A DNA stretch of 64,000 nt from Desulfobulbaceae bacterium (lineage in GTDB: Bacteria > Desulfobacterota > Desulfobulbia > Desulfobulbales > Desulfocapsaceae): assembly GCA_003249645.1 (NCBI GenBank), contig QKIH01000044.1, positions 1 to 64,000 of the forward strand, read 5' to 3'. The notes below the pieces were generated by a model. That model did not search any database, was not told where the DNA came from, and saw nothing but the letters and a program-made list of their open reading frames with translations. The stretch's first letter is position 1. Each line of letters starts with the position of its first letter. Below are positions 27,260-53,037 of this stretch, piece after piece. The position numbers and the translations under genes are program-made.

Positions 27260-30200
27260 CTAATTGCCGTTTTTCTTCTTTCTGCTGCCCCTTGCCATTA
27301 CTCTGGAAATCTCCTGCAGGATACTGTTTTTTTCAACCGGTTTTCTTATATAACCATTCATACCTGCTTCATAAAATTCTCTTTCATCATCGGCCATGGC
27401 ATAAGCAGTCATGGCAATAATTGGAATCAAACGATTTTTTTCGCCAGCACGTCCTTTCCGCACTGCTTTTGTCGCCTCAAGACCATCCACGACAGGCATC
27501 TGAATGTCCAGCACAACTAAATCAAAATTCTCTTTAGTTAGACACTCGACAACCTCTGCTCCATTTATAACTGCTGTGACATTCAAACCGATGTTTCGTA
27601 AAAGCTGAGCCCCCACCATCCTCGAAACAGGATCATCTTCAGCGAACAACACCTTGTATTTACGTGATAAAGACTCGTTTTCATTTTTCTCGGAGATATT
27701 GTCTTTTTCTTGTTGCAGCTTAAACGGAAGGCTGATGTAAAAGCTCGTACCCTCTTCTTCCCTGCTGTTTACTGCAAGATTTCCACCCATCAGTTCAACC
27801 AGCTGTTTTGAAATGGCAAGTCCCAATCCGGCTCCTCCAAACTGATGCTTATATCGTACCTCTTCCTGTGTAAACGGCGTGAACAATTTTTTCAGCGTCG
27901 AATCAGAAATACCGATCCCGTTATCTTTAACTGTTATAAAAAGACGAACATCTTTTGTATTAACGGCCATATCCAGTTTTTCGATAGTGACCAGCACTTC
28001 ACCTTTAATGGTGAATTTTATCGCATTGCCTATCAGGTTGCTCAAAACCTGTTGAAACCTCACCACATCCCCGATGAGATTATCAGGAACGTCTGTATTC
28101 TTACAGATGGTAAGCTTCAACCCTTTGGATTTGGCTGTTGGTAAAAAAAGTTGGGTGAGAGCGGCGATATTTTCGGAAAGATCGAAAGTCTCCTCCTGAA
28201 TCAGCATTTTTCCAGCTTCAACCCTTGAAATGTCAAGGATATCAGACAGCAGCCTTGTTAACCTCCGGCACGATTGTATGGCAATTTCAATATACTCATG
28301 GTGTTCAGGTTTTGGAGAAGAGTCCTGCATCATCTGAAGCATTCCCATAATGCCATTAATCGGGGTTCTGATCTCATGACTCATGTTCGCTAAAAAGGCC
28401 GATTTCGTTTTATTTGCCTGCTCAGCATCTTTTTTGGCCTGCAGCAGAGTTTCTTCTATTTTTTTTCTTTCAGTAATATCCTGATTGACTCCTGTCAGCT
28501 TAAATTCATTCTGTTGATTTGTTTTTACTCTCTTGAATTTTACAGCAATATGCCTGATCTCATTGTTTCTGGTGATTATTCGATGCTCAGTTGTATGATA
28601 AAAATCAGACGTTTTAACGCTGAGAAACGCACGAATACTTTCCTCAACCAGATAGCGGTCATCGGGATGAACAAAGTTGACCGTGTAATCATGAACAGAC
28701 ATCTTGCTGCCTTCTCTTTGCGAATTTGTTGCATATAGTGAATAAAACTGGTCGTTAAATAGAAAGTACCCCTCCCCTTTTTCATTAAGAACACCTTCCC
28801 AATGGCCCATTTTTGCGAGATCCAACGCCAGAGCTAATTTCAGGTTTGATTCGGCAAGAGCATCACGTTTCTCTGCCAATTCTTTTTCGCTCTTCTTTTT
28901 GCTCGTTATATAACGTGCCTGGTTAACATTTTGATAGGCCAGCCTTGACATATAATTCGTAAACAGATCAAGCGCCTGAGAAACTGACTCGAACTGTTCT
29001 TCTGACATCACCGGAATTTGACGGTATTCTCTCAGCATTTTTGCAGGATCCGCTCCGATCTCCACTGCATACCTCTCAATCTGTGCATCGATAGGCGTGT
29101 CGGATCGCACCTGACCAATGATCCAGCTGGCCAGATGCTTCTCTCCTACAGTAATATTCGCTCCTGCAAGCCAGCAGCCAACAACCGGGCACAAGGTAAT
29201 ATTAGGCCCAACACACTGATGTTGGGCCATGATTGCGTCGGTCATTTTACAATGCACCGCCCCTTTTTCTGTGCTTCGTATTAAGTCAAAGCAAAGATCT
29301 GTGGTATTGCTTGGTTTTGTAATAGGAACACCATCAGGGTCGACTATCATACAGCCGACGCCAGTAGCTTGAGAAAACACATCCTGAAATTTTTGTATTT
29401 CGTCCAGACTGAAAAGATCATCGAAACAGATTTTTTCATTCGATTCAAGTGGCGTTGTAAGGGATAAAATGCGTTTCTCCAAAGCCTCTTCCAGCTGTTT
29501 TCTTTCTGTAATATCATCAAAGACGCCAAGTACACCGATAATGTTTCCCCGTTCATCTGTCAGAGGAGATTTTGATGTATCAACCCAGCGTAGTTCTCCT
29601 TCAGAGGTGTGCACCTGTTCAATCATTTCAACCGGTTCCCCTGTTGATACAACCTTTTTATCAACCCCTCTGTAGGCTTCCGCCATATCTCGCGGCATGT
29701 TTATGTCAAAATCAGTTAGACCTACCAGCCCTGCAGGTGTTCGAAAACCGAAAGTACTCGCAAAGACATTATTGCAACCAAGAAACACTCCATTTAAATC
29801 TTTCCAGAATACTGCCTGTGGAATGGTATTGATTATTTTGTTCAGCATGTCACGGCTTTGCCGAACATTCTCAGAAGCTCGTTTTATCTCGGTTATATCC
29901 TGAACCGTACCGAAAAATTTAACTATGTTTCCTTGATCATCTTTCTCAACAGTTCCTCTGGTAATGAGATAAAGGAAATGCCCTTCACTGGAAAGAGTAC
30001 GATGCTCAATGCTTAAATATGTTTTCCCCTTTCTCTTTCCAGCATCTCTAAAAGCCGCTACCACTTTTTTTCTATCATCAGGGTGTATGAGTTTTCTCAG
30101 TCTTTCTGCAGGGATATAATTATAGAGATCACCTTGCGAATAACCATAAATTTCGCATGCTTCACTTGACGCCGAAATGAGGTCCTTTTCAGGGAAATAC

Positions 30201-30991
30201 TCCCAGTGCCCTAGTCTTGCATATCTTTGTGCATCAAGATATCTGGCGTGGTTTTCTTCATATCTTCGTTCAATTTCCTTTCTTTTTCTGATATCAATAA
30301 AATAACCGTAAACCTCTGAAATATCATCTTTTCGAAAAATTCTAGCATGATGATAAACCCACACTTTTTGCCCCAGAGCTGTAACAAGCATACACTCCTG
30401 GTCAGTCAGGGTGTGTAACTGATGAATTTGCTTATCGCCTAATCGGCTCAGCTTGGCTATTTCCGGACATCTGAATATCTGCGAGAAAGGAATATCTCCG
30501 TTGACAATGCGTTTGGCGTCATAACCAAATTGTTTTATATTTTTAGAAACTGAAACGACCTGTAATTCGCTGGTTATTTCCAGCTTATATCGTACGACAG
30601 GCCCATCTTCAAACAAGGCATCAGCACAAGATTCATTGTGATCAGGTTCTCTTCTCTTTGCTACTTGATCTGAAGACGGCGTACTCCATGGTTGGAGCAG
30701 CACCAGGCTGAATCTTCCTGAAGGGAGATCCAATGAGCTTATACTGGCTATTCCTGCCTCTATAACCCTGCCTTTTTCATTTGAGATGTAAATGGATGGA
30801 GAAGTGAAGGAATGGCTATACTGTTCAACCGGTCCAAAAACAGTGTTGACCGGCATTAATTCGGCTTCTTTATTACTGTACCCTGTCAACTCTTCTGCAA
30901 CGGGGTTAATATAGCAAAGCAGATCCTGATTGTTTTTGACATATGCCGCATGGCTCAACAGATCGAGGATTTCAGTGTTCAACTCTTCCAT
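27260..30991 (-). CDS. Multi-PAS hybrid sensor histidine kinase with PocR-like domain and C-terminal receiver
   Basis: Several PAS/PAC segments; Cys-rich PocR-like block; FLANMSHEIRTPINGIMGM H-box; GGAGLGLAISKQLVELMGG; receiver FAEDDPVSR...LVVLDIQMPVVDGLE. Confidence 0.9.
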   Translation of the reverse strand: MEELNTEILDLLSHAAYVKNNQDLLCYINPVAEELTGYSNKEAELMPVNTVFGPVEQYSHSFTSPSIYISNEKGRVIEAGIASISSLDLPSGRFSLVLLQPWSTPSSDQVAKRREPDHNESCADALFEDGPVVRYKLEITSELQVVSVSKNIKQFGYDAKRIVNGDIPFSQIFRCPEIAKLSRLGDKQIHQLHTLTDQECMLVTALGQKVWVYHHARIFRKDDISEVYGYFIDIRKRKEIERRYEENHARYLDAQRYARLGHWEYFPEKDLISASSEACEIYGYSQGDLYNYIPAERLRKLIHPDDRKKVVAAFRDAGKRKGKTYLSIEHRTLSSEGHFLYLITRGTVEKDDQGNIVKFFGTVQDITEIKRASENVRQSRDMLNKIINTIPQAVFWKDLNGVFLGCNNVFASTFGFRTPAGLVGLTDFDINMPRDMAEAYRGVDKKVVSTGEPVEMIEQVHTSEGELRWVDTSKSPLTDERGNIIGVLGVFDDITERKQLEEALEKRILSLTTPLESNEKICFDDLFSLDEIQKFQDVFSQATGVGCMIVDPDGVPITKPSNTTDLCFDLIRSTEKGAVHCKMTDAIMAQHQCVGPNITLCPVVGCWLAGANITVGEKHLASWIIGQVRSDTPIDAQIERYAVEIGADPAKMLREYRQIPVMSEEQFESVSQALDLFTNYMSRLAYQNVNQARYITSKKKSEKELAEKRDALAESNLKLALALDLAKMGHWEGVLNEKGEGYFLFNDQFYSLYATNSQREGSKMSVHDYTVNFVHPDDRYLVEESIRAFLSVKTSDFYHTTEHRIITRNNEIRHIAVKFKRVKTNQQNEFKLTGVNQDITERKKIEETLLQAKKDAEQANKTKSAFLANMSHEIRTPINGIMGMLQMMQDSSPKPEHHEYIEIAIQSCRRLTRLLSDILDISRVEAGKMLIQEETFDLSENIAALTQLFLPTAKSKGLKLTICKNTDVPDNLIGDVVRFQQVLSNLIGNAIKFTIKGEVLVTIEKLDMAVNTKDVRLFITVKDNGIGISDSTLKKLFTPFTQEEVRYKHQFGGAGLGLAISKQLVELMGGNLAVNSREEEGTSFYISLPFKLQQEKDNISEKNENESLSRKYKVLFAEDDPVSRMVGAQLLRNIGLNVTAVINGAEVVECLTKENFDLVVLDIQMPVVDGLEATKAVRKGRAGEKNRLIPIIAMTAYAMADDEREFYEAGMNGYIRKPVEKNSILQEISRVMARGSRKKKNGN

Positions 30992-31873: not shown

Positions 31874-33331
31874 ATGAAGATAGTTTTTTTTGTATGTCAT
31901 CACCGTATCAGGAGGAAACTGCAGATGATCCAACTGCCGCAGCTTTACCGCAGAGCCGTAACCTATTCACTTCCGATAATTATTTTTGGAATGTTTTCCT
32001 GTGGACCAGTCATAGCGCAGAAGACTGAGATAAAAAAAGCAACTCTTGATGAATGTATCGAAGAAGCTCTTGCAAATAACCACAGAAAACCGGTTTCGCA
32101 ATATGCTGTTCAGATGGCTGAAGCACAACACAAACAGGCTCTTGGTTCTTATTGGCCGCAAATCGCTGTTCAGGGCAGCTATCAAAAGCTTGATGAGTCT
32201 GTCAATTTTGTTTTTCCAAGTCAGATCATGTCATTTCCTGGCTTAACCATTGCCACTCCTGAGCAAAATATTGAAGTTATCAGTGATCAGCATTTCACTA
32301 CGTCAGCCAACGCTACCTGGCTGCTTTATGATGGTGGAATGCGCAAGGGCATTACTTCGCAAACCCAGGGCCAGATTGACGTAATGAAAATCGAAGCCCG
32401 GCGAACCGATCTCGAAATTATTGACAGCGTACAGCGTTATTACTGGGGCGCGGTACTGGCTGAAAAGCTTTATCAAACAAGTGTTGATACTCTCAGCCGC
32501 ATGGAGGCAACTCTCAATCTCACAGAAACGATGTATAAGGAAGGTAGCGGACGGGTAAAAAAAACAGACTACCTGAGCAACAAGATTATGGTTGAATCTA
32601 TTAGGGCCATGGTTGCACTTCTTGAAAAAAACAAACTCAGCACCGTTGCAGCTCTTGCCAACACCATGGGGCTCAGCTGGGATCAAAGTGTGGTTCCTGC
32701 AGATAATAACCTACCATATGTGCCGATGGATCTTGACCTTGATAATCTGGTCGCAACTTCATATCAATTTAATCCTGACTGGTCAAAACTTCTCATCGGC
32801 CTTCGTGTCGCTGAAGGGGCACTGACAGAAGCCAAAAGCGGTCATCACCCTAAACTTGCTGTTACAGGAAAGGTCTATAAGTGGTGGCCGAACTCTGATG
32901 AAGGCCTTGCCACAGATCAAAATGAAGAGGGATGGCAGCTTGGAGTCGGTATTGAACTGCCGATTTTTAATGGCATGTCAACGACCAGCCGCGTACTTGA
33001 AGCAAAGGCGCGCATAGGAAAACTCAATGAAGAAAAATACCTCCTGAAAGAGGGCCTCGGCCTCCAGATCAGAGACATATTTCTCTCTCTTGCTGCTGCT
33101 GAAAAATCACAGGATGCCACACTTGAGGCAATGAATTCCTCAATTGAGAATCGTGACCTTAATACCAGAGCTTACCAGAACGATCTGGTTGAAACAGAAG
33201 ATGTCATCCAGGCTCAACTGGTCGAAGGCCTGATGACAGCACAACATTTCAAAGCCCGTTATGACCATATCGCACTGAAATCTCAACTTCAGCTTGCAGT
33301 TGGTTCTGAATTGTTTAAAACTTTACAATAG
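31874..33331 (+). CDS. TolC family outer membrane protein
   Basis: LDECIEEALANNH, ALGSYWPQIAVQGSYQ, YDGGMRKG, long coiled-coil repeats, internal duplication. Confidence 0.88.
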   Translation: MKIVFFVCHHRIRRKLQMIQLPQLYRRAVTYSLPIIIFGMFSCGPVIAQKTEIKKATLDECIEEALANNHRKPVSQYAVQMAEAQHKQALGSYWPQIAVQGSYQKLDESVNFVFPSQIMSFPGLTIATPEQNIEVISDQHFTTSANATWLLYDGGMRKGITSQTQGQIDVMKIEARRTDLEIIDSVQRYYWGAVLAEKLYQTSVDTLSRMEATLNLTETMYKEGSGRVKKTDYLSNKIMVESIRAMVALLEKNKLSTVAALANTMGLSWDQSVVPADNNLPYVPMDLDLDNLVATSYQFNPDWSKLLIGLRVAEGALTEAKSGHHPKLAVTGKVYKWWPNSDEGLATDQNEEGWQLGVGIELPIFNGMSTTSRVLEAKARIGKLNEEKYLLKEGLGLQIRDIFLSLAAAEKSQDATLEAMNSSIENRDLNTRAYQNDLVETEDVIQAQLVEGLMTAQHFKARYDHIALKSQLQLAVGSELFKTLQ

Positions 33332-33409
33332 TAGATAGAAATTTTGGTTTTAAAATAGCCCATCAGTTCTCAAACAGGAGACACACCCTGTATTACAATA
33401 TCAAATTTT

Positions 33410-34333
33410 ATGCCGTATAGTTTTTTCTATTATTTTTCTAGATATTCCATGCGTTTTTTCCTCTGCATGTCTGTCACAGTCTTCTGTTTTCTCTTTCTTT
33501 TCTCTCATGACAGCTATTGTTCGGAAGAAAAATTCAGAATCGGCTTTTCTATTAAAACACTTGGAGAAGTTAATCAAAATGATGCCATAGCAGCTGTACA
33601 GTTGTGGACTAACGGGCTCGCAAGTGATAACAAAATACCTATTGATCCTGAACCGATTATTTTTTCATCTCTCGATCAGATGAAGAACGCATTGGACAAC
33701 AGGATGATAGATTGCGTCAATATCACAACGCCGGAGTTTGCGGCCATTGAAAACAAAATAGACACAAACTACATGATAGCAGGATTAAAGCAGAACTCGA
33801 TGTATGAAGAATATGTCGTAATAGTCAGAAAAAGTTCAGGCTTTAATTCAATAAATGATCTTCAAAATAAATCGATTGTCGAACTCGACACATCCAGAAC
33901 GTCATTGGCACCACTCTGGCTTGACGCTGAATTGCATCTTAAAAAACTGCAACCGTCTACATCATTTTTCTCAAAAATCGAATCTGTAAACAATCTTACA
34001 GCTTCCGTACTTCCTGTTTTCTTTAACAATTCAGACGCCTGCCTTGTCAACAAGTCGGGATTTGAAACAATGGTTGAACTGAACCCACAGCTTGATCAGC
34101 AATTGAAAATCATTCTACAATCCAAGCCTTACATCCCGATGTTGTTTGCTTTTCGAGCAAATTACAACAGCCCATTTAAGAATCAGGTGCTAAGCCATCT
34201 GGAAAACTGGCACAACTCTCCTGAAGGCAGACAAATACTAACCATTTTCCAAACCGATAGTATAATCAGATTTACGTACGACCAGTTACTTGACTCGCTG
34301 GAATTGGTTAAGCGGCATCGAAGTCTGCAATAG
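33410..34333 (+). CDS. PhnD-like periplasmic binding protein (paralogue 1)
   Basis: Signal peptide; NDAIAAVQLWTNGL; SRTSLAPLWLDAEL; GRQILTIFQTDSI. Confidence 0.8.
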   Translation: MPYSFFYYFSRYSMRFFLCMSVTVFCFLFLFSHDSYCSEEKFRIGFSIKTLGEVNQNDAIAAVQLWTNGLASDNKIPIDPEPIIFSSLDQMKNALDNRMIDCVNITTPEFAAIENKIDTNYMIAGLKQNSMYEEYVVIVRKSSGFNSINDLQNKSIVELDTSRTSLAPLWLDAELHLKKLQPSTSFFSKIESVNNLTASVLPVFFNNSDACLVNKSGFETMVELNPQLDQQLKIILQSKPYIPMLFAFRANYNSPFKNQVLSHLENWHNSPEGRQILTIFQTDSIIRFTYDQLLDSLELVKRHRSLQ

Positions 34334-34336
34334 CGA

Positions 34337-35338
34337 TTGATTTTTCTCATTATGAAGACATCATCCACCACCCTTGATTCACCAATCGTTTTTATCTATA
34401 ATTCTTTAGTGATATCAAGACATAGCCATACACGTTTTGTATCGTTGATTTTGTTTATTTTCCTCCTTTCATTCCCACAGATCAGTTTTGCGGAAAAAAC
34501 ATATCCTATTGTTTTCGGTTTTTCCCAGTCTATTTTAGGATCAAACATTAATGTCAATGATGCAACCGCTGCAGTTAAAACATGGACTAATTCCCTGACT
34601 AAGTCGGCTCATATCCCTGCAGAACCCAAGCCGGTTGTCTTTGAAAGCATCGATGAAACGTACCAGGCTCTTCGCAACAAGGAAGCAGAAGTGTTTTTTC
34701 TGACACTGCCTGAGCTTTATCCTGTAGTCGATGCAATGGATGACACGATCATGCTCATGCCGGTCACCAATGGCACAATTTCTGAGCAGTATATCCTGCT
34801 CACCAATAAATCATCAGGCATCAAAACCCCAGAACAGCTCATTGGAAAAGATCTGATCATATTTGTCAACTCAAGGACATCATTAGCTCCTTATTGGCTT
34901 GAAACAACGCTGAAAGAAAATGGCATGAAAGCACAGAAAGATTTTTTTTCAATGGTCACCAATGTATCAAAACTAAATGATGCTGTTTTGCCGGTTTTTT
35001 TCAACAAAGCGGCTGCCTGTCTTGTTTCAAAAAGCGGCTTTGACACTCTTGCTGAGCTTAACCCGCAAATAGCGAAACAACTTCATGTGATAATGCAATC
35101 TCCTGAATATATCCCAAGCGGGCTCTTTTTCAGGAAAGATTATGAGTCGCCGATAAAAGAAAGAATTGTCGAAGATCTGGCCGATTGGCTAGTATCTACC
35201 GATGGCAAACAGCTGCTTACAATCTTCCAACTTGAAAGCCTCAGTATTGAAAACAGCACCTGTCTTGAAAATAGTGTTAATCTGCTTCGAAAACATGAGA
35301 CCCTGTTAAAACCAGAAAATATTAGCCTGCATGATTAA
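34337..35338 (+). CDS. PhnD-like periplasmic binding protein (paralogue 2)
   Basis: NDATAAVKTWTNSL; SRTSLAPYWLETTL; GKQLLTIFQLESL. Confidence 0.8.
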   Translation: MIFLIMKTSSTTLDSPIVFIYNSLVISRHSHTRFVSLILFIFLLSFPQISFAEKTYPIVFGFSQSILGSNINVNDATAAVKTWTNSLTKSAHIPAEPKPVVFESIDETYQALRNKEAEVFFLTLPELYPVVDAMDDTIMLMPVTNGTISEQYILLTNKSSGIKTPEQLIGKDLIIFVNSRTSLAPYWLETTLKENGMKAQKDFFSMVTNVSKLNDAVLPVFFNKAAACLVSKSGFDTLAELNPQIAKQLHVIMQSPEYIPSGLFFRKDYESPIKERIVEDLADWLVSTDGKQLLTIFQLESLSIENSTCLENSVNLLRKHETLLKPENISLHD

Positions 35339-36293
35339 CAAATACCTTGAGACACAAGGTTGTTGCTCTATGAGACAGCTTGAATTTCTATCTTTTTTAT
35401 TTCTTTTTCTGTTTTTTACTCCGCTCTCTTCTTATTCTGCTGACGTATCTGAACCACCTGTTCATTGTTTCACTTTTGGTATTTCTGCAGTTAACTTTGG
35501 CGGACTCAATAAAAATGACACGACCGCATCCTTGAAAGCCTGGACTCACGCGATCATTTATGAAGAAAAGTTTAACCTTTCACTCCAGATTGATCTGTTT
35601 AACTCATTTGAAGAGCTTAACAGCAAGTATGACAAACAGGAAATTGATGCCGCTTCAATAAATGTCGGCGAATTCATGCAGCTTCATGAAAAGCCTTCAT
35701 ATGTTTACATTCCAACGTACAATAACAGCCCTTTTATCAGATATGCACTTGTTGTTCGGAAAAAAGATGCGACAAATGTATTCAAACAGCTGTCTCGCGG
35801 ACATATTGCTTTTCATGATTCCCCAAAGATGATTTACGCAGTTCCCTGGCTTCAGCTCTTCCTACTGAAGATGCAACCAGAATCAGGGAATAAAGAAAAG
35901 ATAGGCTCTCTATCTCGAAATCTCCATCAGGCAGAAAATCCCTCCAAAGCAATCTTCGAGGTCTTTTTCCATCAGGCTGTTGCGGCCCTTGTAACTTTGG
36001 AATCCTATCAGCTGGCCTGCGAGCTTAATCCGCAGTTGCAGAATAATCTTGAAACAGCAGCCATTTCACCGGAACTTATCGCAGCAATGTTTTTACTCCG
36101 CCCTTCTTTTCAGGCTTCATACCGCAAACAGCTGGAGGAATATTTAGAAACAATGCACACAACCACTGCCGGCAAACAGGTATTGACCACATTTCAAAGT
36201 GAAAAAATAATCAAATATCCGATTTCCATTCTTCAAACAACAATGGAGCTTATTACAGCTCACCGAAGCAACTTTTCTAACGAAGGAATATGA
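35331..36293 (+). CDS. PhnD-like periplasmic binding protein (paralogue 3, divergent)
   Basis: NDTTASLKAWTHAI; GKQVLTTFQSEKI; overlaps paralogue 2. Confidence 0.75.
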   Translation: MINKYLETQGCCSMRQLEFLSFLFLFLFFTPLSSYSADVSEPPVHCFTFGISAVNFGGLNKNDTTASLKAWTHAIIYEEKFNLSLQIDLFNSFEELNSKYDKQEIDAASINVGEFMQLHEKPSYVYIPTYNNSPFIRYALVVRKKDATNVFKQLSRGHIAFHDSPKMIYAVPWLQLFLLKMQPESGNKEKIGSLSRNLHQAENPSKAIFEVFFHQAVAALVTLESYQLACELNPQLQNNLETAAISPELIAAMFLLRPSFQASYRKQLEEYLETMHTTTAGKQVLTTFQSEKIIKYPISILQTTMELITAHRSNFSNEGI

Positions 36294-36411
36294 TGGAAAT
36301 AATAACCAGCATATGCTGTCTCCGTACCACGCACCATTTCTTGCTTTACAATTTTTGCCGTGATATGAGTTAATTATTGTCAAACATCTTATTAATATCA
36401 GTGACAAGCAA

Positions 36412-38646
36412 ATGAAAGGCATTAGTACCTCACTAAAGACACACGATAAAAAAAAGAAAGGTTTCACCATTGCCGTCCGCATAGGCCTGCTTATCTGGAT
36501 GGTTGCGGTTGCAACGCTCTTTATTTTTGTTGTTGTAACTATCCCGCAGCAGAAAAATATCTATATAGAAAACCTCTTTTCAAAATCCAACGGACTGGCT
36601 GTTTCTCTCCACGATGTTGCAGCCGGGGCAGCAATTAATGAAGATTTTGCCAGTGTTGTCAGCGCTGCACAGACACTGCTTGCAGGTGATCCTGACCTCG
36701 AATTTCTTGTTGTCATGAAAAACAACGGTTTTTCTCTGGTCATCGAGCAGGATAAGTGGAGTGTCCAGGAGCTTACATCGGATTACTGGCTTGATAGAAA
36801 ACGTGAGTCGTCTGGTCTGCTTGAAACGGTACCGGTTGTAGACAAGAGAGTTTTTCACTTTATTCAGCCTTTTGATTATTCAGGTATTCAATGGGGATGG
36901 ATCCATGTTGGTCTCTCACTGCAATCATATGACCAGAGCATCAGCTCACTATATCTGAACACCGTTATTCTCGGCCTTTTTTGTATCGTTTTCAGCCTCT
37001 TTTTCTCAGCTGTTTATGCCAAACAGATAGTAAAGCCCATTATCGTACTGCAGTCAGTGTTTCACCAGGTAACTAACGGAGATTTATCTGTACGAGCTGA
37101 TGCGAGAAGAAAAGATGAACTAGGCAGTCTTGCTGCTTCGTTCAATTCAATGACCGACACCCTCTTGCGGAGGGATCTCATACTGGAAAGTGTTCGTTTT
37201 GCCGCCCAGCGTTTTCTGCAGGTTCCGGATTGGCAAGACACAATCGTCGAGATTCTTGAAAGAATTGGCGTGGCGGCTGACGCCAATCGCGCCTCTGTTT
37301 ACAGAAATTTTGTTAATGATAAGAACGAACTTTGCACCATCAGGGATTTCGAGTGGGCTGCAGAAGGTTATGACACCTTAGTCCACCATATCGTTTCCGG
37401 ACATTTCAATGTGCACGCTTTTAAGTTTAACTCTTGGGCTGAGGCTCTTGGCGGAAACAATATTGTCAAAAAGAATTTTTCTGATTTAAACAAAGCCGAA
37501 CAAGTAATATGTGCAAAGCTTGATATAAAATCAATCATTCTCTCCCCGGTCTTTGTTTCAGGTCGCTGGTGGGGCAGCATAATTCTTGAAGATTGCGTCA
37601 AAGAACGTCACTGGACCGATGCAGAAGAAGACAGTCTTAGGACTGCAGCAGACATACTCGGTGCAACGATCGCCCGGCAACAGGTTCAGGAAGCACTTAT
37701 AGAGGCAAAATCAACCCTTGAATCCAGAGTTGACGAACGCACCCGCGAATTAAAAGAGCAGTTTATCAAAAAAGAACAGGCCTTAAAAGAACTCGAAGAA
37801 GCCCAGAGTTCACTACTGGAGATGTCTCGTGCTGCAGGTATGGCAGAGGTCGCCACCGGAGTTCTGCATAATGTTGGAAACGTGCTGAACTCTGTCAACG
37901 TTTCCTGCACCCTGCTTGTCGATCAGCTCCGTGAATCTCGGATTTCAAATATCTCTAAATTATCAGAACTCATTAATCAGCAGGGAGAAGATCTCCCGTC
38001 CTTTTTGACAACCGATGAACGCGGACGCCAAATCCCTACCTATCTCAAATCGCTTGCCGATGCTTTAAAGAAAGAACACGACACATTATTTAAAGAAACT
38101 GAATCATTGGCCGGCAGGATAGAACACATAAAAGAGATTGTTGCAATGCAGCAGAACTACGGCAGGGTTTCCGGCATCATAGAATCAATTGACCCTCATC
38201 AATTGATGGAAGACGCCCTGATGCTCAATTCCGGCGCTCTTGTTCGCCATAATATTGTCGTCTTAAAAGAATATGCAGATGTTCAGTCTATTCAGGTTGA
38301 TAAACATAAAGTTTTGCAGATACTGCTTAACCTCATCAATAACGCCAAATATGCCTGCTCAGAAGCAGACATTTCTGGTAAAAAAATCCGCCTGAAAATT
38401 TACCAGATAGACGGGGAAGTCTATTTCGAAGTCATTGATAATGGTATCGGCATTTCTGAAGAAAATCTCACCAATATCTTTCGCCACGGTTTCACCACTC
38501 GCCGTTCCGGCCATGGGTTTGGTCTTCACAGCGGAGCACTGGCTGCACGCGAACTGAATGGAGTACTGTTTGCACAAAGTGAGGGCCGAGGAAAAGGTGC
38601 AACATTTACTTTAAAACTTCCATTGAACACACCAAGTCAGAAGTAA
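36412..38646 (+). CDS. Membrane histidine kinase: periplasmic sensor, HAMP, GAF, noncanonical H-box
   Basis: Two TM segments, HAMP PIIVLQSVFHQVTNGDLSVRADARRKDELGSLAASFNSMTD, H-box AEVATGVLHNVGNVLNSVNVS, N-box NLINNAKYA, G-box GHGFGLHSGALAA. Confidence 0.88.
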   Translation: MKGISTSLKTHDKKKKGFTIAVRIGLLIWMVAVATLFIFVVVTIPQQKNIYIENLFSKSNGLAVSLHDVAAGAAINEDFASVVSAAQTLLAGDPDLEFLVVMKNNGFSLVIEQDKWSVQELTSDYWLDRKRESSGLLETVPVVDKRVFHFIQPFDYSGIQWGWIHVGLSLQSYDQSISSLYLNTVILGLFCIVFSLFFSAVYAKQIVKPIIVLQSVFHQVTNGDLSVRADARRKDELGSLAASFNSMTDTLLRRDLILESVRFAAQRFLQVPDWQDTIVEILERIGVAADANRASVYRNFVNDKNELCTIRDFEWAAEGYDTLVHHIVSGHFNVHAFKFNSWAEALGGNNIVKKNFSDLNKAEQVICAKLDIKSIILSPVFVSGRWWGSIILEDCVKERHWTDAEEDSLRTAADILGATIARQQVQEALIEAKSTLESRVDERTRELKEQFIKKEQALKELEEAQSSLLEMSRAAGMAEVATGVLHNVGNVLNSVNVSCTLLVDQLRESRISNISKLSELINQQGEDLPSFLTTDERGRQIPTYLKSLADALKKEHDTLFKETESLAGRIEHIKEIVAMQQNYGRVSGIIESIDPHQLMEDALMLNSGALVRHNIVVLKEYADVQSIQVDKHKVLQILLNLINNAKYACSEADISGKKIRLKIYQIDGEVYFEVIDNGIGISEENLTNIFRHGFTTRRSGHGFGLHSGALAARELNGVLFAQSEGRGKGATFTLKLPLNTPSQK

Positions 38647-41600
38647 TGCCAAAATCAAGACGTAATAAGCAGAAAATTCTTTCAGCTCCTAAAAACAGGG
38701 AATCGCCTCCTCTGTTGATAGACAGGAATTCTCTGCTCTGGCAGCTCATTGAGTCGTCCACTGATGGTTTGGGCATTTTAGACCATGATTTCAAACTGAT
38801 TTTATGTAATCACTCTTTCGCCAGCTCTCTTGGTTATTCGGTTGAGGATTTAACAGGAAAACATGCCTGGTATTGGGATGCAAAATATAGTTCGAAAGAA
38901 GCATTCATTTCGGATGTCTCGATTAACAACAGTCTTCCCAGCAAATTCGAAACACAGCATCGTCGAAAAGATGCAACTATTATAGATGTTGAAATCACCC
39001 TTACCACTACGAACGTAGAGGGCAGCGGCGTCTACATGTTCGTAAGCAAAGACATCACCGAGCAGAAACAGGAAAAGCGCAACCTTCTGCAAACCAGATT
39101 CGCCATGGAAAACGCCAAAGACAGCTGCTCCTGGTTTGATGCACAGGGCAACATTGTCTACGCGAATCATTCTGCTTGCAGAGTTCTTGGCTTTTCTAAA
39201 AAACAAATGCTCTCTAAAACCATATTTGATATAGACCCCAACTATACCCGCGCGGGATATACAAAACTGGTTAATAAACTGAAAAAACAGGGATCATGTC
39301 TTTTTGAGAGCACTCACATTACCAGCGACGGCAGAATTTTCCCGGTTGAGATCAGTGCAAATTATTTTAAGGATAGCAGCAACTTCTACATCTGTGTCTT
39401 TGACAGGGATATAACAACACGCAAAATTGCCGAAGAGGCGCTGCAAGAACACAGTAAAATTCTAGAAGAGAATGTATCAAAACGAACAAGTGAACTTTTA
39501 GAGGAAATTAAAAGAAGACAGCTGTCAGAGAAAGCATTGCAGAAAAGCGAGGCAACCTTTAAAGCTCTTTCTGAAAACTCATTGGATGTCATAATGCGTT
39601 TTGACAGAAAGTATAAACTGCTCTATGTCAATCCGGCAGTGCAGTCTATCACCAGTTACACGCCTGATGATCTTATCAATAATTCATTTTCCGATCTCGA
39701 AAAGGCCAAACCAATTGCACCATATCTCAACAGTGCATTGGAAAAGGTTTTTACCAGCGGGAAACTGCACCAGATCGAGTTTATGCTGCCGAACGGGATA
39801 TGGATCGAAAGTCTGCTCTCTCCGGAGTTTAATCGCAAGGGAGATGTATCCGCAGTTGTTTCAACTTCGAGAAATATAACCATACACAAACAGACCCTGG
39901 CCAAACTTAATATCTACAACCAGCTGCAGCAGCTGCTCACAGATCTGGCACTGACATTTATCAATCTCCCGCTGCATGAAACCACCAGCGCTGTGAAAAA
40001 AGCACTTGCCGAGATAGCCTCATTTGTCAGCGCCGATCACGCGTTTATCGTCCATTACGACTATAACAGAAGAACATGTACAAATACCTACTCATTCAGG
40101 AGAAAAGGTTTCAAGTCAAAGAGTGCGCTCCCCTACTCCAGCTTTATCGACAGCATCAACAGCAAGAAAGGGCAAAAAATTCTACATATCCCCGATAGTT
40201 GCATGTTGCCGGAAAACCACAAGTTCAAAAATTTTATGCTTCAAAGCGGCATGACAAGCTTGATTATTGTTCCCATGTTAATCGGCTCTGAAGTTACAGG
40301 TTGTGTCGGATTTGAAACATACGGTCATGGTCATAACTATTCGGAACAGGAACAACAGCTGCTTTCAATTTTCACCCAGCTTCTAGTCAATATTGACAAA
40401 CGGAATGAAACCGAAAGCGCCTTGAAGGAGCAGCATTCATTTCAGGAAATCATTGCCTCCATCGCAGTCAGATTTGTGACAGTAACTGAAAGCAATCTCA
40501 GTGAACTTATAGCCAACACACTGCTGCAGATTGACAGATTCTTCAACTTTGACCGTTCTTCATTCATATTTGATGGTTTTTCCCGGATCAAAACAATAAA
40601 TAGCATTGACGTAGTTGATCACCAAGTGCAGGGCGGCACTTTAAAATGCCCAATGATTCACCCCGTTATCAGGGATAATTTCCTCGAAAAGGATAATATT
40701 TTCAGGCAACAGACTATTTTTCATTTCCCTGTCACTGAAAAGATTCAAAGTAAAAATAAAGCATGGATGCCTTACTTTGCTGAAAATAGCATCAAATCAG
40801 CACTCTATCTATCCTGTAAAACCGATCAGAAAGTTTATGGCATTCTGGGTTTTGAGATGAAAAAAGACTATTCCCAATGGTCCCAGGCTCAAATAAACGG
40901 ACTGGTTATCGTCGCCCAGATATTGGGATATACTCTCGCCAACCTTGAAGCAAGAAAGGCATTGCTGGCCGCAAAGGTAAATCTCGAATCCAGAGTTGAT
41001 GCAAGAACACATGAACTTATTAAACAGATAAAAGCCCGCGAGAAAACGATGGAGGATCTAGCTAAAGCCCAGTCAAGTCTGCTTGAAGCTTCACGTTCCG
41101 CAGGGATGGCTGAGGTCGCAACCAACGTCCTGCACAACGTCGGCAATGTTTTAAACAGTATTAATGTGTCATGCAACATGCTCTCCGGCACCCTGAAACA
41201 ATCAAGATTATCAAATCTGAGCAAAATTACTGAAATGCTTCATGCTGCTAACGGGGGTTACACACATTTTCTGACCCTTGATGAAAAAGGAAAGCATATC
41301 CCTGAATATCTTGTTTCTCTTGCTCCGCAATTAGAAAAAGAACAGCAGACGCTGCTGGATGAAGTGCGGCTTTTAAGCGATAAAATCGACCACATAAAAA
41401 AAATTGTTAATATGCAGCAGGGGTTCGGCAGGGTTCATGGCATATTCGAGAACCTTTTCCCTGAAAAGCTTTTTGAAGATGCCTTGTCACTTTCAACCTC
41501 TTTACTGCATAAACACAATGTAACAGTAGATAAAGTTTTTCATGATGTTCCTGAAATAAGTTCAGACAAACATAAGATCATGCAAATTCTGTTAAACATG

Positions 41601-41909
41601 ATCACCAATGCATGCAATGCATTTGAAAAATATGACAGCAACAGAGACAATGTTATTACACTTGGTCTTTCCCTCGCCGACAATAATGCTATACAATTTC
41701 TTGTAAAAGATAACGGGACAGGTATTCTGAAAGAAGATATCAATAAAATTTTTCTCTATGGCTTTACGACAAGACAGAAAGGTCACGGATTCGGTCTGCA
41801 CAGTGGTGCACTTGCCGCAAGTCAGCTGGGTGGAACGTTAAGAGCATCAAGTGAAGGTTCAGGATGCGGAGCAACATTTATCCTGGAATTGCCATTACAA
41901 AAAAAATGA
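38646..41909 (+). CDS. Cytoplasmic multi-PAS/GAF histidine kinase, same noncanonical H-box
   Basis: PAS segments, GAF segments, H-box AEVATNVLHNVGNVLNSINVS, N-box NMITNACNA, GHGFGLHSGALAA. Confidence 0.88.
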   Translation: MPKSRRNKQKILSAPKNRESPPLLIDRNSLLWQLIESSTDGLGILDHDFKLILCNHSFASSLGYSVEDLTGKHAWYWDAKYSSKEAFISDVSINNSLPSKFETQHRRKDATIIDVEITLTTTNVEGSGVYMFVSKDITEQKQEKRNLLQTRFAMENAKDSCSWFDAQGNIVYANHSACRVLGFSKKQMLSKTIFDIDPNYTRAGYTKLVNKLKKQGSCLFESTHITSDGRIFPVEISANYFKDSSNFYICVFDRDITTRKIAEEALQEHSKILEENVSKRTSELLEEIKRRQLSEKALQKSEATFKALSENSLDVIMRFDRKYKLLYVNPAVQSITSYTPDDLINNSFSDLEKAKPIAPYLNSALEKVFTSGKLHQIEFMLPNGIWIESLLSPEFNRKGDVSAVVSTSRNITIHKQTLAKLNIYNQLQQLLTDLALTFINLPLHETTSAVKKALAEIASFVSADHAFIVHYDYNRRTCTNTYSFRRKGFKSKSALPYSSFIDSINSKKGQKILHIPDSCMLPENHKFKNFMLQSGMTSLIIVPMLIGSEVTGCVGFETYGHGHNYSEQEQQLLSIFTQLLVNIDKRNETESALKEQHSFQEIIASIAVRFVTVTESNLSELIANTLLQIDRFFNFDRSSFIFDGFSRIKTINSIDVVDHQVQGGTLKCPMIHPVIRDNFLEKDNIFRQQTIFHFPVTEKIQSKNKAWMPYFAENSIKSALYLSCKTDQKVYGILGFEMKKDYSQWSQAQINGLVIVAQILGYTLANLEARKALLAAKVNLESRVDARTHELIKQIKAREKTMEDLAKAQSSLLEASRSAGMAEVATNVLHNVGNVLNSINVSCNMLSGTLKQSRLSNLSKITEMLHAANGGYTHFLTLDEKGKHIPEYLVSLAPQLEKEQQTLLDEVRLLSDKIDHIKKIVNMQQGFGRVHGIFENLFPEKLFEDALSLSTSLLHKHNVTVDKVFHDVPEISSDKHKIMQILLNMITNACNAFEKYDSNRDNVITLGLSLADNNAIQFLVKDNGTGILKEDINKIFLYGFTTRQKGHGFGLHSGALAASQLGGTLRASSEGSGCGATFILELPLQKK

Positions 41910-41918
41910 GAATGTGTA

Positions 41919-43775
41919 ATGAAATCCGACCATAAGGCCAGCAATAACAGGATCATTATTATTGACGACAACGTCGCTATTCATGATGATTTTAAAAAAA
42001 TACTTGTTAAAGAGGGTGATGACAATCGTGATCTGGAAGATTTGGAATCCCTTCTATTCGGTTCCGCCATACCTGGTAATACTGGAATTCAGTTTGAGAT
42101 AGATTGTGCTCTCCAGGGAAAAGAAGGCTGGGAAATGGTTAAGAACGCCAGGGAAAACGAAAAGCCGTATGCCCTGGCCTTTGTTGATGGACGCATGCCT
42201 CCTGGCTGGGATGGAATTGAAACAATCAAGCATCTCTGGGAGATTTCTCCAGAGCTGCAGATAGTGCTGTGTACCGCATACGCTGATTATTCTTGGAAAG
42301 AGATTCAAGATGTTCTCGGTAAAAGCGACAGCCTTCTTATCCTGAAAAAACCTTTTGATAATGTTGAAGTCCTTCAGCTTACTCACGCTTTAACACGAAA
42401 ATGGGAATTGAATCAGGAAATCCAGGGAAGACTCCATCATCTTGCCTATTATGATAACCTGACCGGCCTTCCCAACCGCGCTCTTTTTGTCGACAGACTC
42501 ACCCTTGCTCTAGAGGCCGCCCAGCGTGACAAGTATAAGGGCGCGCTTCTTTTTATTGATCTGGACAACTTTAAACGAATAAACGACACACTGGGGCACA
42601 GTGTTGGCGATGAACTGCTGAGAATCATGGCGCAGCGGATTCTTCTTTCCCTTCGCAATACAGATAAGGTGTCACGCCCTATAATCCCTGAAACGGCCGC
42701 AAGACTCGGCGGAGACGAGTTCACCATTGTCATACCTGAACTCTACGGCAATGAACGTGCAGCAGTTGTAGCAAGACGCATAGAAAAACAGCTCGCAGAA
42801 CCGGTGCATCTCGGCAATCATGAATTTATCATCACCTCCAGCATCGGCATTGCCATTTTCCCTGATGACGGCAACGATGTGGAATCCCTTCTGAAAAATG
42901 CTGATCTTGCCATGTATTTTTCTAAAAACAGCGGCCAAGGACGTTTCAATTATTACCGGGAATCGATGAACGAAGCAGCTCTTCGGCGTCTCACCATTGA
43001 AAACCATCTGAGAATTGCCATTGAACACAAAGAGCTTGAATTGTACTACCAGCCTCAGGTCAATATCACAAATAACAAAATCACCGGCTTTGAAGCGCTA
43101 CTGAGATGGCATAATGAAGATCTTGGAACGCTTTCTCCACTTGAATTCATTCCGGTTGCGGAAGAAAGCGGTCTCATTCTCTCTCTTGGCGACTGGGTGA
43201 TACGCACGGCATGCAAACAGGCCAAAGCCTGGTTTGATAAAGGATATCATTTTGAGCGGATCGCGGTAAATGTCTCAGTACGACAATTCACCCACCCTGA
43301 TTTTGCTGAAAAAGTACTCGCCATAGTAGAGGAATTCGATCTGACGCCAAATACGCTTGAAATTGAAATAACTGAAAGTCTTCTGATGCAGGATTTTGAA
43401 AAACTGGTGAAAAATCTCGAAAATTTGAGAAAGCATGGAATTCAGATTTCCGTCGACGACTTTGGTACCGGCTATTCGAGTCTCAGCCGCCTCAAGGAAA
43501 TACCAATTGACAGCTTGAAAATAGACAGGACATTTATTGTCGGAATTGAAAAAGACGGTAGAGATCTTTCAATTATTGAAGCAATCATAGCCATGGCCAA
43601 AGGGATGCATCTGCGCGTCATCGCTGAAGGGGTTGAAACCAGCAAACAGCTGAATTATCTCCTTAATAAACAATGTTATGAGGCACAGGGATATCTCTAC
43701 AGCAGGCCCGAGCCAGCAGAACAAATTGAACAGTTTCTTCAACAGGGGGCGTTTTTAAAACCGGCCCTAAACTAG
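41919..43775 (+). CDS. Response regulator with receiver, GGDEF and EAL domains
   Basis: IIIIDDNVAIHDDF...LAFVDGRMPPGWDGIETI receiver; RLGGDEFTIVI; GFEALLRW; DDFGTGYSSLSRLKEIPIDSLKID. Confidence 0.93.
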   Translation: MKSDHKASNNRIIIIDDNVAIHDDFKKILVKEGDDNRDLEDLESLLFGSAIPGNTGIQFEIDCALQGKEGWEMVKNARENEKPYALAFVDGRMPPGWDGIETIKHLWEISPELQIVLCTAYADYSWKEIQDVLGKSDSLLILKKPFDNVEVLQLTHALTRKWELNQEIQGRLHHLAYYDNLTGLPNRALFVDRLTLALEAAQRDKYKGALLFIDLDNFKRINDTLGHSVGDELLRIMAQRILLSLRNTDKVSRPIIPETAARLGGDEFTIVIPELYGNERAAVVARRIEKQLAEPVHLGNHEFIITSSIGIAIFPDDGNDVESLLKNADLAMYFSKNSGQGRFNYYRESMNEAALRRLTIENHLRIAIEHKELELYYQPQVNITNNKITGFEALLRWHNEDLGTLSPLEFIPVAEESGLILSLGDWVIRTACKQAKAWFDKGYHFERIAVNVSVRQFTHPDFAEKVLAIVEEFDLTPNTLEIEITESLLMQDFEKLVKNLENLRKHGIQISVDDFGTGYSSLSRLKEIPIDSLKIDRTFIVGIEKDGRDLSIIEAIIAMAKGMHLRVIAEGVETSKQLNYLLNKQCYEAQGYLYSRPEPAEQIEQFLQQGAFLKPALN

Positions 43776-43928: not shown

Positions 43929-45167
43929 ATGAACCAGAATACACGCGTCGTTATTACCGGGGTTGGGCTTGCCGCTCCCAATGCAGACAATCTTCATGAT
44001 TTCAGAGATAAAGCTATCAGAGGAATAAACGAAACCACCGAAATTGAATTACGCTATTTCGGCAAGGCACCTGCCGGTATCTGCACCTTCCCTGAGACCA
44101 AATACCGTAAGAAAAAAGATAATAAACGCGGTACCAGAGCCGGTTGTCTTGGCGTTTACTGTACCTACGAGGCACTCAACGATGCCGGGCTTGATATTGA
44201 TTACTATGATCGTTCGAAGATCGGCGTCTATATTGGCCTTACGGAGCATGGCACAGTCGAAACTGAAAATGAAGTGTACAACATAAAACAGTATGACTAT
44301 GACACGAAGTACTGGACACACCATCACAACCCGAGAACAGTGCTGAACAATCCGGCTGGCGAAATTACCATGAGCCTTGGGATAACCGGCCCGCATTACT
44401 CAATCGGCGCCGCATGCGCCGCTGGTAATGCATCTCTGATACAGGGTGTTCAGATGCTGCGCCTCGGTGAAGTGGATATGGCCATTGCCGGCGGCATCTC
44501 GGAATGTGTCGGCTCCTTTGGTATTTTTGCCTCGTTTAAAGCACAGAATGCCCTGGGCTATGATGAAGACCCTCGGCTTGCCTGCAAACCCTTTGACATG
44601 AGCCGTAACGGCATAATCATTTCTGAAGGCGCATGCGTATACACTCTTGAAACCCTGGATAAAGCTCTTGAACGCGGGGCAAAAATTTACGGCGAGATTG
44701 TCGGCTATGCCATGAATTCCGACGCCAAAGATTTTGTTCTGCCGTTCTGGGAAAGACAGGCTGAGTGTATGGAGCTTGCCCTTCAACGAGCAGGACTTAA
44801 AGCGGAAGACATTGACCTGGTAAACACCCACGCCACCGGCACCAAATCAGGTGATATTGAAGAGTGCAAAGCTGTAAAACGAGTCTTCGGTAATTCTTCT
44901 TCTACTTATATCAACAATACCAAATCAATCATTGGTCATGCCATGGGTGCTGCCGGAGTTCTTGAACTTGCTGCCAACCTCGGCAGTTTCGATGATGGAA
45001 TCATCCACCCAACCATCAATATTACTGAACTCGACCCTGAATGTGCCTTGAATAATCTTGTTATTAACACAGCAAAACAAGTTGACGCGGTTGATACAAT
45101 ATTGAACAACTCTTTCGGCATGGTTGGTATAAACTCCACCCTTGTGGTAAAAAAATACAAGGGATAA
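43929..45167 (+). CDS. Beta-ketoacyl-ACP synthase (KAS II/FabF-like)
   Basis: Catalytic C-H-H: GAACAAGNASL, NTHATGTKSGD, KSIIGHAMGAAG. Confidence 0.92.
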   Translation: MNQNTRVVITGVGLAAPNADNLHDFRDKAIRGINETTEIELRYFGKAPAGICTFPETKYRKKKDNKRGTRAGCLGVYCTYEALNDAGLDIDYYDRSKIGVYIGLTEHGTVETENEVYNIKQYDYDTKYWTHHHNPRTVLNNPAGEITMSLGITGPHYSIGAACAAGNASLIQGVQMLRLGEVDMAIAGGISECVGSFGIFASFKAQNALGYDEDPRLACKPFDMSRNGIIISEGACVYTLETLDKALERGAKIYGEIVGYAMNSDAKDFVLPFWERQAECMELALQRAGLKAEDIDLVNTHATGTKSGDIEECKAVKRVFGNSSSTYINNTKSIIGHAMGAAGVLELAANLGSFDDGIIHPTINITELDPECALNNLVINTAKQVDAVDTILNNSFGMVGINSTLVVKKYKG

Positions 45168-45295
45168 TGAAATTTTCTTTTATTCTAAAAAAAACATAAA
45201 AAAGATTGATCATCTGTGTTATAGACACATTTTGTTAAAATCTAGGATACGATTATTCGCTTTTAAATATAGTACAGAACCTTCTGGAGATACGA

Positions 45296-45547
45296 ATGAC
45301 ACGTGACGAAATTAAAGACCTGGTACTTGAAATCATTGAAGATATTGATGAGGACGCTGATTTTGATGCGCTTGATCCTGCTGAACCGCTGCGTGATCAG
45401 CTAGACCTTGATTCCATGGATTTTCTCGATATTGTCATGGAGCTTCGTAAACGTCATCAGTTACAAATTCCCGAAGAAGATTATCCTCAACTTGCAACCC
45501 TCAACAGCTGTGTGGACTATCTTGAGCCGCTTCTCAAAGACGCCTGA
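45296..45547 (+). CDS. Acyl carrier protein
   Basis: 82-residue acidic protein; phosphopantetheine site DLDSMDFLDI. Confidence 0.9.
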   Translation: MTRDEIKDLVLEIIEDIDEDADFDALDPAEPLRDQLDLDSMDFLDIVMELRKRHQLQIPEEDYPQLATLNSCVDYLEPLLKDA

Positions 45548-45551
45548 TTGA

Positions 45552-46937
45552 GTGAAGTATCCTTTTCTGATTATCGGCAGCGGCTTATCTGGTTTAGCCG
45601 CTGCTATCCGTATATCCAACTATTGCCCTGACGTACTGCTGCTTGATCAACACAGCAGAATTGGCGGCCTGAATTCATACTACTACCGCAACAACCGTCT
45701 GCTTGAAACCGGCCTTCATGCAATAACCAACTACGCACCGAAAAAGCAAAAACATGCACCGATCAACAAGCTGTTCCGACAACTGAAAATCAAGCGTGAT
45801 GAATTTTCTTTTAAAGAACAGATTGGCAGCCAGATTCACTTCGGTTCTGATCAGATCCTGAATTTCAACAATGATGTAAACCTGCTGATCTCAGAGGTAG
45901 AACGACTATTCCCGGATTGTCACGATGATTTTTGCTCCTTATTAAAGAAAATCGAAGTCCATAATCCGTTTCAAAATACAACAGGCTTGTCTGCAAGAAA
46001 GTATCTCGAAGAAATGATCAGCGATAAACGGCTGATTGAAATGCTGCTATGCCCTCTTTGCTATTATGGTTCAAGTGTTGAAAATGATATGGAACTCAAC
46101 CAGTTTGTCATCATGTTCCGTTCGATATTTCTTGAAGGCATGTTCAGGCCAGAAGGTACAATTAGAGATTTCCTTCAGGTTCTAAAGCAACGCTTTGTTG
46201 ATCAGGGCGGTACACTGAGGCTGAAAAGCAAAGTCAGCAGGATTCTTGTAAAAAACAATACCGCCTATGGCGTTGAGCTTGATTCCGGTGAAATAATTGA
46301 AGCCGACAATATACTGTCCACGGCCGGATATGAAGAAACTTTAGCCCTGACGGGCCGGGATCTTAAAACCAGGATCGGCAAACGGCTTGCATTCATCGAG
46401 TCTATTTTTTTAGTCGACGATTCGATAAAAAACAACCTCACCACCTCAAAAACGATTATTTTCTATAATTCCGGAGAATTATTTAATTATCAGCAATCCG
46501 CCGAGATTGTCGATTACCGGAGCGGTGTTATCTGTTTTCCCCAGAATTTCCAAGATATTGGCATTTCAGATCCTTTGGAAATCCGGTTAACACACCTAGC
46601 CAACTATGATCTTTGGCAGAAACTTTCTTCTACCCCGGAAGAATATCGGCGTGTTAAACTTCAATGCAGTGCCCGGTCCGCCGAAACTGCAGAGAAAATA
46701 ATTGGAATTTTTTCTGACAATATTGTATATCAAGACACTTTTACGCCTGTCACAATTCAGCGTTACACTCTGAAACATGAAGGCGCTATTTACGGGAGTC
46801 CTAGAAAAATAGCAGACGGAGACATTGGTTTTACCAACCTCTTCCTAGCTGGAACCGACCAGGGGTTTCTAGGAATAATCGGATCAATGTTAAGCGGTGT
46901 ATCCATCGCCAACCAGCATTTTTTGACCAAAATCTAA
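45552..46937 (+). CDS. FAD-dependent oxidoreductase, phytoene desaturase/CrtISO-like (GTG start)
   Basis: LIIGSGLSGLAAAIRIS dinucleotide-binding motif, GGLNSYYYR, C-terminal LFLAGTDQGFLGIIGSMLSGVSIANQ. Confidence 0.85.
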   Translation: MKYPFLIIGSGLSGLAAAIRISNYCPDVLLLDQHSRIGGLNSYYYRNNRLLETGLHAITNYAPKKQKHAPINKLFRQLKIKRDEFSFKEQIGSQIHFGSDQILNFNNDVNLLISEVERLFPDCHDDFCSLLKKIEVHNPFQNTTGLSARKYLEEMISDKRLIEMLLCPLCYYGSSVENDMELNQFVIMFRSIFLEGMFRPEGTIRDFLQVLKQRFVDQGGTLRLKSKVSRILVKNNTAYGVELDSGEIIEADNILSTAGYEETLALTGRDLKTRIGKRLAFIESIFLVDDSIKNNLTTSKTIIFYNSGELFNYQQSAEIVDYRSGVICFPQNFQDIGISDPLEIRLTHLANYDLWQKLSSTPEEYRRVKLQCSARSAETAEKIIGIFSDNIVYQDTFTPVTIQRYTLKHEGAIYGSPRKIADGDIGFTNLFLAGTDQGFLGIIGSMLSGVSIANQHFLTKI

Positions 46938-46959
46938 ACTTTTACACCTGCCTTTTCTT

Positions 46960-48369: not shown

Positions 48370-48381
48370 CAGAGAACTATC

Positions 48382-49122: not shown

Positions 49123-49124
49123 AA

Positions 49125-49553
49125 ATGAGCAAGGTTCCGGTTACGTCCTATATTCCTCATCGCCCTCCATTTTTATGGGTTGATAAAATTGTTGAACTCA
49201 CTGACAATCGAGCTGTGACAACCAAATACGTAGCTGAGGATCTACCTTTCTTCGAAGGGCATTATCCAGGTAACCCTATTGTACCCGGCGTTATTCTCTG
49301 TGAAGCCATATTCCAGACGGGTGCAGTTCTTATGGGGCATATCATCGGCAATGCTGAGCTGTCTGAAGAAAAAAAACCTGTTCTCACCCGGATAGAAAAT
49401 GCAAAATTCAAACAGATTGTGAAACCGGGCGATACATTGACTATTACTGTTGAACTGAAGGAGACGCTGTCATCCGTCAGTTATTTCAAAGGCAAGCTTT
49501 CCGTTGACGGCAAACTTGCAGTAGCAGTTTCTTTTGCCTGTGCTCTTGTCTAA
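49125..49553 (+). CDS. 3-hydroxyacyl-ACP dehydratase (FabZ-like)
   Basis: IPHRPPFLWVDKIVE, FFEGHYPGNPIVPGVILCEAIFQTGA hot-dog motif. Confidence 0.92.
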   Translation: MSKVPVTSYIPHRPPFLWVDKIVELTDNRAVTTKYVAEDLPFFEGHYPGNPIVPGVILCEAIFQTGAVLMGHIIGNAELSEEKKPVLTRIENAKFKQIVKPGDTLTITVELKETLSSVSYFKGKLSVDGKLAVAVSFACALV

Positions 49554-50418: not shown

Positions 50419-50432
50419 GGTGGAGAGAACAT

Positions 50433-51724: not shown

Positions 51725-51738
51725 CTTAGAAGGAAAGT

Positions 51739-53022: not shown

Positions 53023-53037
53023 TTACGAGACACGAAT

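Follow-up and report, generated by a model that had tools for sequence, protein, structure and literature searches.

A TolC, one to seven binding proteins and a membrane sensor form a conserved gene module, a probable multi-receptor sensory system

The window analyzed here is a 64,000-nucleotide stretch of contig QKIH01000044.1 (GCA_003249645.1) from a Desulfobulbaceae bacterium, and all coordinates are positions in it. A block at 31874-43775 encodes a TolC-family outer-membrane protein, three periplasmic solute-binding proteins (SBP1–SBP3), two histidine kinases (HK1 and HK2) and a response regulator. Pfam assigns to these genes, in order, OEP; Phosphonate-bd (PF12974) three times; HAMP-GAF-HATPase_c; PAS-PAS-PAS-GAF-GAF-HATPase_c; and Response_reg-GGDEF-EAL. 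All seven open reading frames (ORFs) lie on the + strand and are separated by small gaps or overlaps (34333/34337, 35338/35331, 38646/38646 and 41909/41919). Terminator-like patterns are about as frequent in the block as in the background, with none in the + strand intergenic gaps of the seven genes. No ABC ATPase or permease is found within the block. The original prediction for this DNA had described these seven same-strand genes and three binding proteins lacking a local transporter; the coordinates, gaps, overlaps and missing transporter were all confirmed. The first five genes belong to an arrangement, TolC-(SBP)n-sensor, that we call the module. The features of the block are as follows.

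31874..33331, + strand: outer-membrane protein of the TolC family, module subfamily (Pfam OEP; discrete clade)
32543..32569, + strand: TolC periplasmic tip loop 1, GSGRVKKTD (aligned against the TolCs of E. coli K-12 and other genomes)
33170..33217, + strand: TolC tip loop 2, AYQNDLVETEDVIQAQ, spanning the position of E. coli Gly365 (TolC alignment)
33410..34333, + strand: SBP1, PhnD/ArrX-like periplasmic binding protein (PF12974; AlphaFold2 pLDDT 95; top Foldseek match ArrX)
34337..35338, + strand: SBP2, PhnD/ArrX-like, with a TTG start and an in-frame ATG downstream (PF12974; 39% identity to SBP1)
35331..36293, + strand: SBP3, PhnD/ArrX-like (PF12974; 28% identity to SBP1)
36412..38646, + strand: HK1, membrane sensor kinase with two transmembrane (TM) helices, TM-Cache-TM-HAMP-GAF-HNVGN-HATPase_c (Pfam, TM prediction, alignment, structure model)
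36538..36963, + strand: periplasmic single-Cache-like sensor domain of HK1 (inter-TM length, alignment, predicted Cache/PDC fold)
38646..41909, + strand: HK2, soluble kinase, PAS-PAS-PAS-GAF-GAF-HNVGN-HATPase_c (Pfam; catalytic region 49% identical to HK1)
41919..43775, + strand: REC-GGDEF-EAL response regulator, probable cyclic di-GMP (c-di-GMP) output (Pfam; motifs in the translation)

The conserved unit is a TolC followed by one to seven SBPs and a Cache-HAMP membrane transducer, and it occurs in about 12 phyla. A survey of the genome's five SBPs against one genome per species yielded 77 loci from Thermodesulfobacteriota, Pseudomonadota, Acidobacteriota, Verrucomicrobiota, Myxococcota, Calditrichota, Ignavibacteriota, Nitrospirota, Bacteroidota, Kiritimatiellota, Campylobacterota and Gemmatimonadota; the module is not confined to Desulfobacterota. 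TolCs and SBPs were counted per locus by frame-by-frame profile search, with loci carrying more than 2 kb of upstream sequence as the denominator for TolC. A TolC of one subfamily lies within 1 kb 5' of the first SBP in 50 of these 61 independent loci, so the association of TolC, SBPs and HK1 is far beyond chance. The number of SBPs per locus ranges from 1 to 7, and the membrane sensor comes after them or is interleaved with them. The longest array places seven tandem SBPs ahead of a single kinase (L063:8137-14300). The original prediction had suggested looking for conservation of the seven-gene order and held that a lack of conserved synteny would speak against it; synteny is kept for TolC-(SBP)n-sensor, but not for all seven genes, and HK2 is lineage-specific.

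Reverse searches within the phylum, each begun from a different profile (TolC, SBP or sensor), converged on the same genomes. Among 297 genomes, the sensor profile gave two strong matches (>220 bits), in this genome and in G340, the next match scoring 54 bits. Among 395 genomes, the TolC profile matched both of these genomes strongly (664 and 647 bits), with a diverged TolC in G385 at 241 bits, and strong SBP matches were again limited to this genome and G340. The gene order in G340 is TolC-SBP-SBP-sensor. In G385 the diverged TolC, through which alone the locus was located (L157, G385:C14), is followed by a PF12974 SBP and then by a HAMP kinase with two TM helices, which suggests that the TolC-SBP-sensor logic extends beyond the profiled family. 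A TolC outside the profile set, directly 5' of the SBPs in the genome of L022, scored 674 bits. The SBP subfamily is missing from the nearest kin of the bacterium, where 58 relatives yielded weak matches at most, but it occurs in scattered genomes. Pairwise distances of TolC, sensor and first SBP correlate (0.81-0.88), as genes inherited as one unit should; for TolC and sensor r=0.88 overall, and between phyla 0.86.

The conserved input of the transducer is its periplasmic sensor domain. In HK1 the two TM helices are 142 residues apart; no TM helix was found in HK2 or the regulator. For kinase, GGDEF-EAL and GGDEF outputs alike, the inter-TM distance falls within 136-143 residues in all but one of 53 loci, and hhalign comparison of the periplasmic domains of the kinase and GGDEF sets, stripped of TM and HAMP regions, gave P=100 and E=2e-44. 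The sensor tree shows two changes of output, one to GGDEF-EAL and one to GGDEF. The sensor domain of about 140 residues is thus retained while the output switches between kinase, GGDEF-EAL and GGDEF. Its predicted structure (pLDDT 89) has a Cache/PDC fold. Pfam sCache_3_2 stays below its curated cut-off (best 27.0 versus 28.4 bits, in L042; HK1 14.2), neither CHASE8 nor LapD_MoxY_N matched the sensor at Pfam E<=1, and the profile match to the PDB is weak (E=0.06, to a domain annotated HK/GGDEF/EAL).

The module TolCs form a discrete clade, with about one member per genome. Against the module profile, the TolC of the block scored 647 bits and every other TolC in its genome 115 or less; 21 genomes each hold a single TolC at 521-718 bits, with the remaining TolCs at no more than 192. 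A profile trained on three phyla only scored the module TolCs of phyla outside the training set at 326-673 bits and other TolCs at 149 or less, and in the TolC tree a branch with support 99/97 sets the module TolCs apart. In tripartite pumps, the adaptor meets TolC at the periplasmic tip loops. Tip loop 1 is two residues longer than that of E. coli K-12 TolC in 21/21 module TolCs, and the Gly365 position is Glu or Asp in 17 of 21, versus Gly in 11 of 13 other TolCs. In loop length and at this position, then, the module TolCs lack the canonical adaptor-docking tip. Among 68 upstream neighbors the commonest are response regulators, PAS, HD/HD-GYP and GGDEF proteins, and the top 25 families by count include neither adaptors nor RND proteins nor ABC ATPases. 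The original prediction had regarded TolC as an export output or accessory, a view that does not fit its being the most constant partner, which stays when the output changes. Together, co-inheritance, the altered tip and the lack of a pump nearby favor a specialized sensor-side part. The module TolC would most likely serve as a specialized channel or dock for ligands or binding proteins, and less likely as the outlet of some known pump.

The predicted folds of the SBPs place ArrX, then AioX, as the nearest solved relatives (Foldseek), and by sequence the nearest is also ArrX. Both are signaling SBPs of XSR systems, and the oxyanion pocket of AioX comprises Tyr131, Ser161, Ser163, His192 and Asp210 (PMC5908839). 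This arsenic oxyanion pocket is for the most part not conserved in the module SBPs: among the Tyr, Ser and Asp positions mapped, Asp alone is conserved widely (81%) and the Ser-x-Ser loop is variable, while the Tyr mutated in ArrX 6x8w (Y138) aligns with Glu106 of SBP1. Identity between SBPs of the same array has a median of 32%, with 1 of 238 pairs above 60%. This rules out recent tandem duplication and implies that the copies are old and probably have different recognition targets. Strict first, middle and last SBP classes were likewise rejected, because position labels cluster more than shuffled ones but change 78 times on the tree. The motif ELNPQ is only partly an artifact of the search: the scan pattern includes it, yet the exact motif is also present in 57 of the 96 SBPs that this pattern misses.

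SBPs of this kind also occur outside full modules. The same genome has two further SBPs of the module subfamily, each solitary, on other contigs (L006:9132-10052 and L007:11150-12130, both on the - strand, contigs C26 and C50); no TolC, kinase or transporter adjoins them, and their neighbors are unrelated. They might act in trans on the same sensor. A sensor is encoded elsewhere in five genomes that have solitary SBPs (this one, G370, G372, G373 and G375). In a Desulfovibrionales metagenome-assembled genome (G369; L016, L019 and L053), seven module-type SBPs and a TolC are present, and the SBPs adjoin kinases without the sensor domain, possibly a variant of the module. Finally, diverged PhnD-like SBPs outside the module subfamily lie directly 5' of a sensor kinase in L099, L101, L103, L104, L106, L109, L110, L112, L113, L115 and L117, and such pairs look common in the phylum.

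On the output side, the translation of the regulator contains DD, VDGRMP, KPF, GGDEF, EALLRW, DDFGTGYSS and AEGVET. Its phospho-acceptor, GGDEF and EAL motifs appear intact, and its output is probably c-di-GMP. Close REC-GGDEF-EAL relatives stand beside HK1 relatives in L023, L026 and L058, and L021 also has a close relative; the recurrent adjacency in the first three loci makes HK1 and the regulator a likely signaling pair. HK2 shares the phospho-acceptor box HNVGN with HK1 and is 49% identical to it over about 380 residues of the catalytic core. A similar second kinase was found elsewhere only in L010, a locus cut by a contig end. HK2 is a lineage-specific addition and reads as an HK1 core that was copied and fitted with a cytoplasmic sensor head.

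We propose, and consider probable, that the block encodes an SBP-dependent sensory system in which many receptors converge on one transducer with a dedicated TolC, HK1 signals to the REC-GGDEF-EAL protein and HK2 supplies a second input. Each diverged periplasmic SBP would recognize its own ligand or ligand state and, in its bound or empty form, dock on the Cache-like periplasmic domain of HK1. The transducer would then drive its swappable output via HAMP; here, HK1 would phosphorylate the regulator and so set c-di-GMP, and HK2, a soluble kinase sharing the phospho-acceptor module of HK1, could bring a cytoplasmic signal to that regulator. TolC would be the constant sensor-side part, serving as channel or dock. 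Signaling from SBP to sensor is likely. In its anatomy the module fits SBP-dependent systems: PhnD-family SBPs that have no partner permease or ATPase stand next to a co-inherited membrane sensor with a periplasmic domain. A bolder version, which we offer tentatively and would not bet on, is that TolC itself is sensory, its altered tip docking SBPs so that the array reads solutes passing through the channel and reports to one interchangeable transducer. If true, TolC would serve signaling rather than a pump in about a dozen phyla.

Several observations weigh against this proposal. In genomes G369, G371, G374 and G378 module SBPs are present and the sensor domain is missing; in most of them the SBP contigs end near the SBPs, where the assemblies may therefore be truncated. 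Together with the solitary SBPs, these cases mean that some SBPs may not act on this sensor. The distance correlations owe something to shared descent, and the case for the TolC role comes down to co-inheritance and tip sequence. We also infer, rather than observe, the SBP–sensor interaction, the ligand and phosphotransfer from kinase to regulator, and neighboring SBP/kinase pairs of P. aeruginosa, AgtB/AgtS and PA4985/AruS, gave no binding (PMC11113362).

The same genes could instead form an ordinary AioXSR-like two-component system that shares its operon with the efflux TolC of pumps encoded elsewhere, TolC being a regulated target or a passenger. TolC proteins often serve pumps encoded elsewhere, and the same phylum has SBP–kinase pairs without TolC, in which weak sensor matches have a PhnD-like gene directly 5'. 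We nevertheless regard this as unlikely, given a discrete TolC clade with about one member per genome that is bound to the module in many phyla and retained through output changes, and whose adaptor-docking tip loops are unlike those of E. coli TolC and of other TolCs in the same genomes. Considerably less probable is that the SBPs deliver to an unlinked or unrecognized importer, with TolC as a passive uptake pore and the kinases regulating uptake. PF12974 proteins do occur mostly in ABC transporters (PMC5908839), and the original prediction had acknowledged that an unlinked phn-type permease/ATPase pairing uniquely with these proteins would undermine it. However, the best PhnE match in the genome, whose assembly is 87% complete, scored 46 bits versus a cut-off of 217, no ABC ATPase motif was found near the SBPs in the fetched loci, and the nearest folds are signaling SBPs; the first two results also rule out phosphonate transport and membership in PhnCDE. 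Chance or regional clustering without functional coupling is the least credible explanation, even though signaling genes are common in such genomes and the neighbors are enriched in PAS and receiver domains. With order kept in about 12 phyla and matching presence in the reverse searches, it is refuted for TolC-SBP-HK1, though not for HK2.

Around the block, a large hybrid kinase with a PocR sensory domain, PAS and a receiver (27260-30991, - strand) is divergent from it. Immediately 3' (43929-49553) are genes for a ketosynthase, a small acyl-carrier-like ORF, two FAD desaturase/amine-oxidase-like proteins, an SDR and a FabA-like dehydratase, a set that resembles a cluster for a polyene or modified fatty acid. 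TolC as a passenger of this downstream ketosynthase/acyl-carrier (KAS/ACP) cluster was ruled out, since TolC remains linked to the SBPs in genomes where the neighbors are very different. ExbB/TolQ, ExbD/TolR, TonB/TolA-like, TolB-like and TPR genes at 49726-54060 form a Tol-Pal cluster.

The literature searched, in which subscription journals were poorly covered, yielded no description of a TolC-SBP-sensor module. The logic of SBP-dependent signaling is already known from AioXSR and NspS-MbaA; as far as these searches show, the combination of a multi-SBP array, a dedicated TolC and a swappable output is undescribed. The module offers a test of TolC as a sensor component and of receptor number per transducer, and its presence in the cultured Malonomonas rubra, Desulfoluna limicola and Desulfosarcina alkanivorans makes it amenable to testing.

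Each part of the module has known counterparts. The TolC fold is common to TolC/OprM tripartite efflux and type I secretion, but the module has no recurrent adaptor or pump nearby and its tip loops are distinct. PhnCDE and PtxABC phosphonate or phosphite ABC transporters share the PF12974 SBP, whereas the module lacks their permease and ATPase partners. YfiB-YfiR-YfiN and Lap control c-di-GMP from outer membrane through periplasm to inner membrane, three compartments feeding a HAMP-linked transducer; the module resembles them in this layout, with different protein families. The NspS-MbaA system has a single SBP of another, PotD-like family and is not known to involve a TolC. In this Vibrio system for polyamine sensing, NspS acts without a transporter of its own on the membrane GGDEF-EAL protein MbaA (PMC8967002, PMC5646818), and the gammaproteobacterial variant of the module (L068 group) resembles it in this. 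Closest in sequence and fold are AioX-AioS-AioR, ArrX and ArxX, in which a transporter-less PhnD-family SBP stands beside a membrane kinase and regulator. These systems have a single SBP, and their published account mentions no TolC; the module, by contrast, has 1-7 SBPs in which most pocket residues are not conserved, a dedicated TolC and a c-di-GMP-enzyme or otherwise variable output. Where known SBP-dependent signaling comprises single-SBP cases, the module sets up to seven diverged SBPs before one transducer, swaps phosphorelay and c-di-GMP enzymes behind one input domain, and adds a TolC with an unusual tip.

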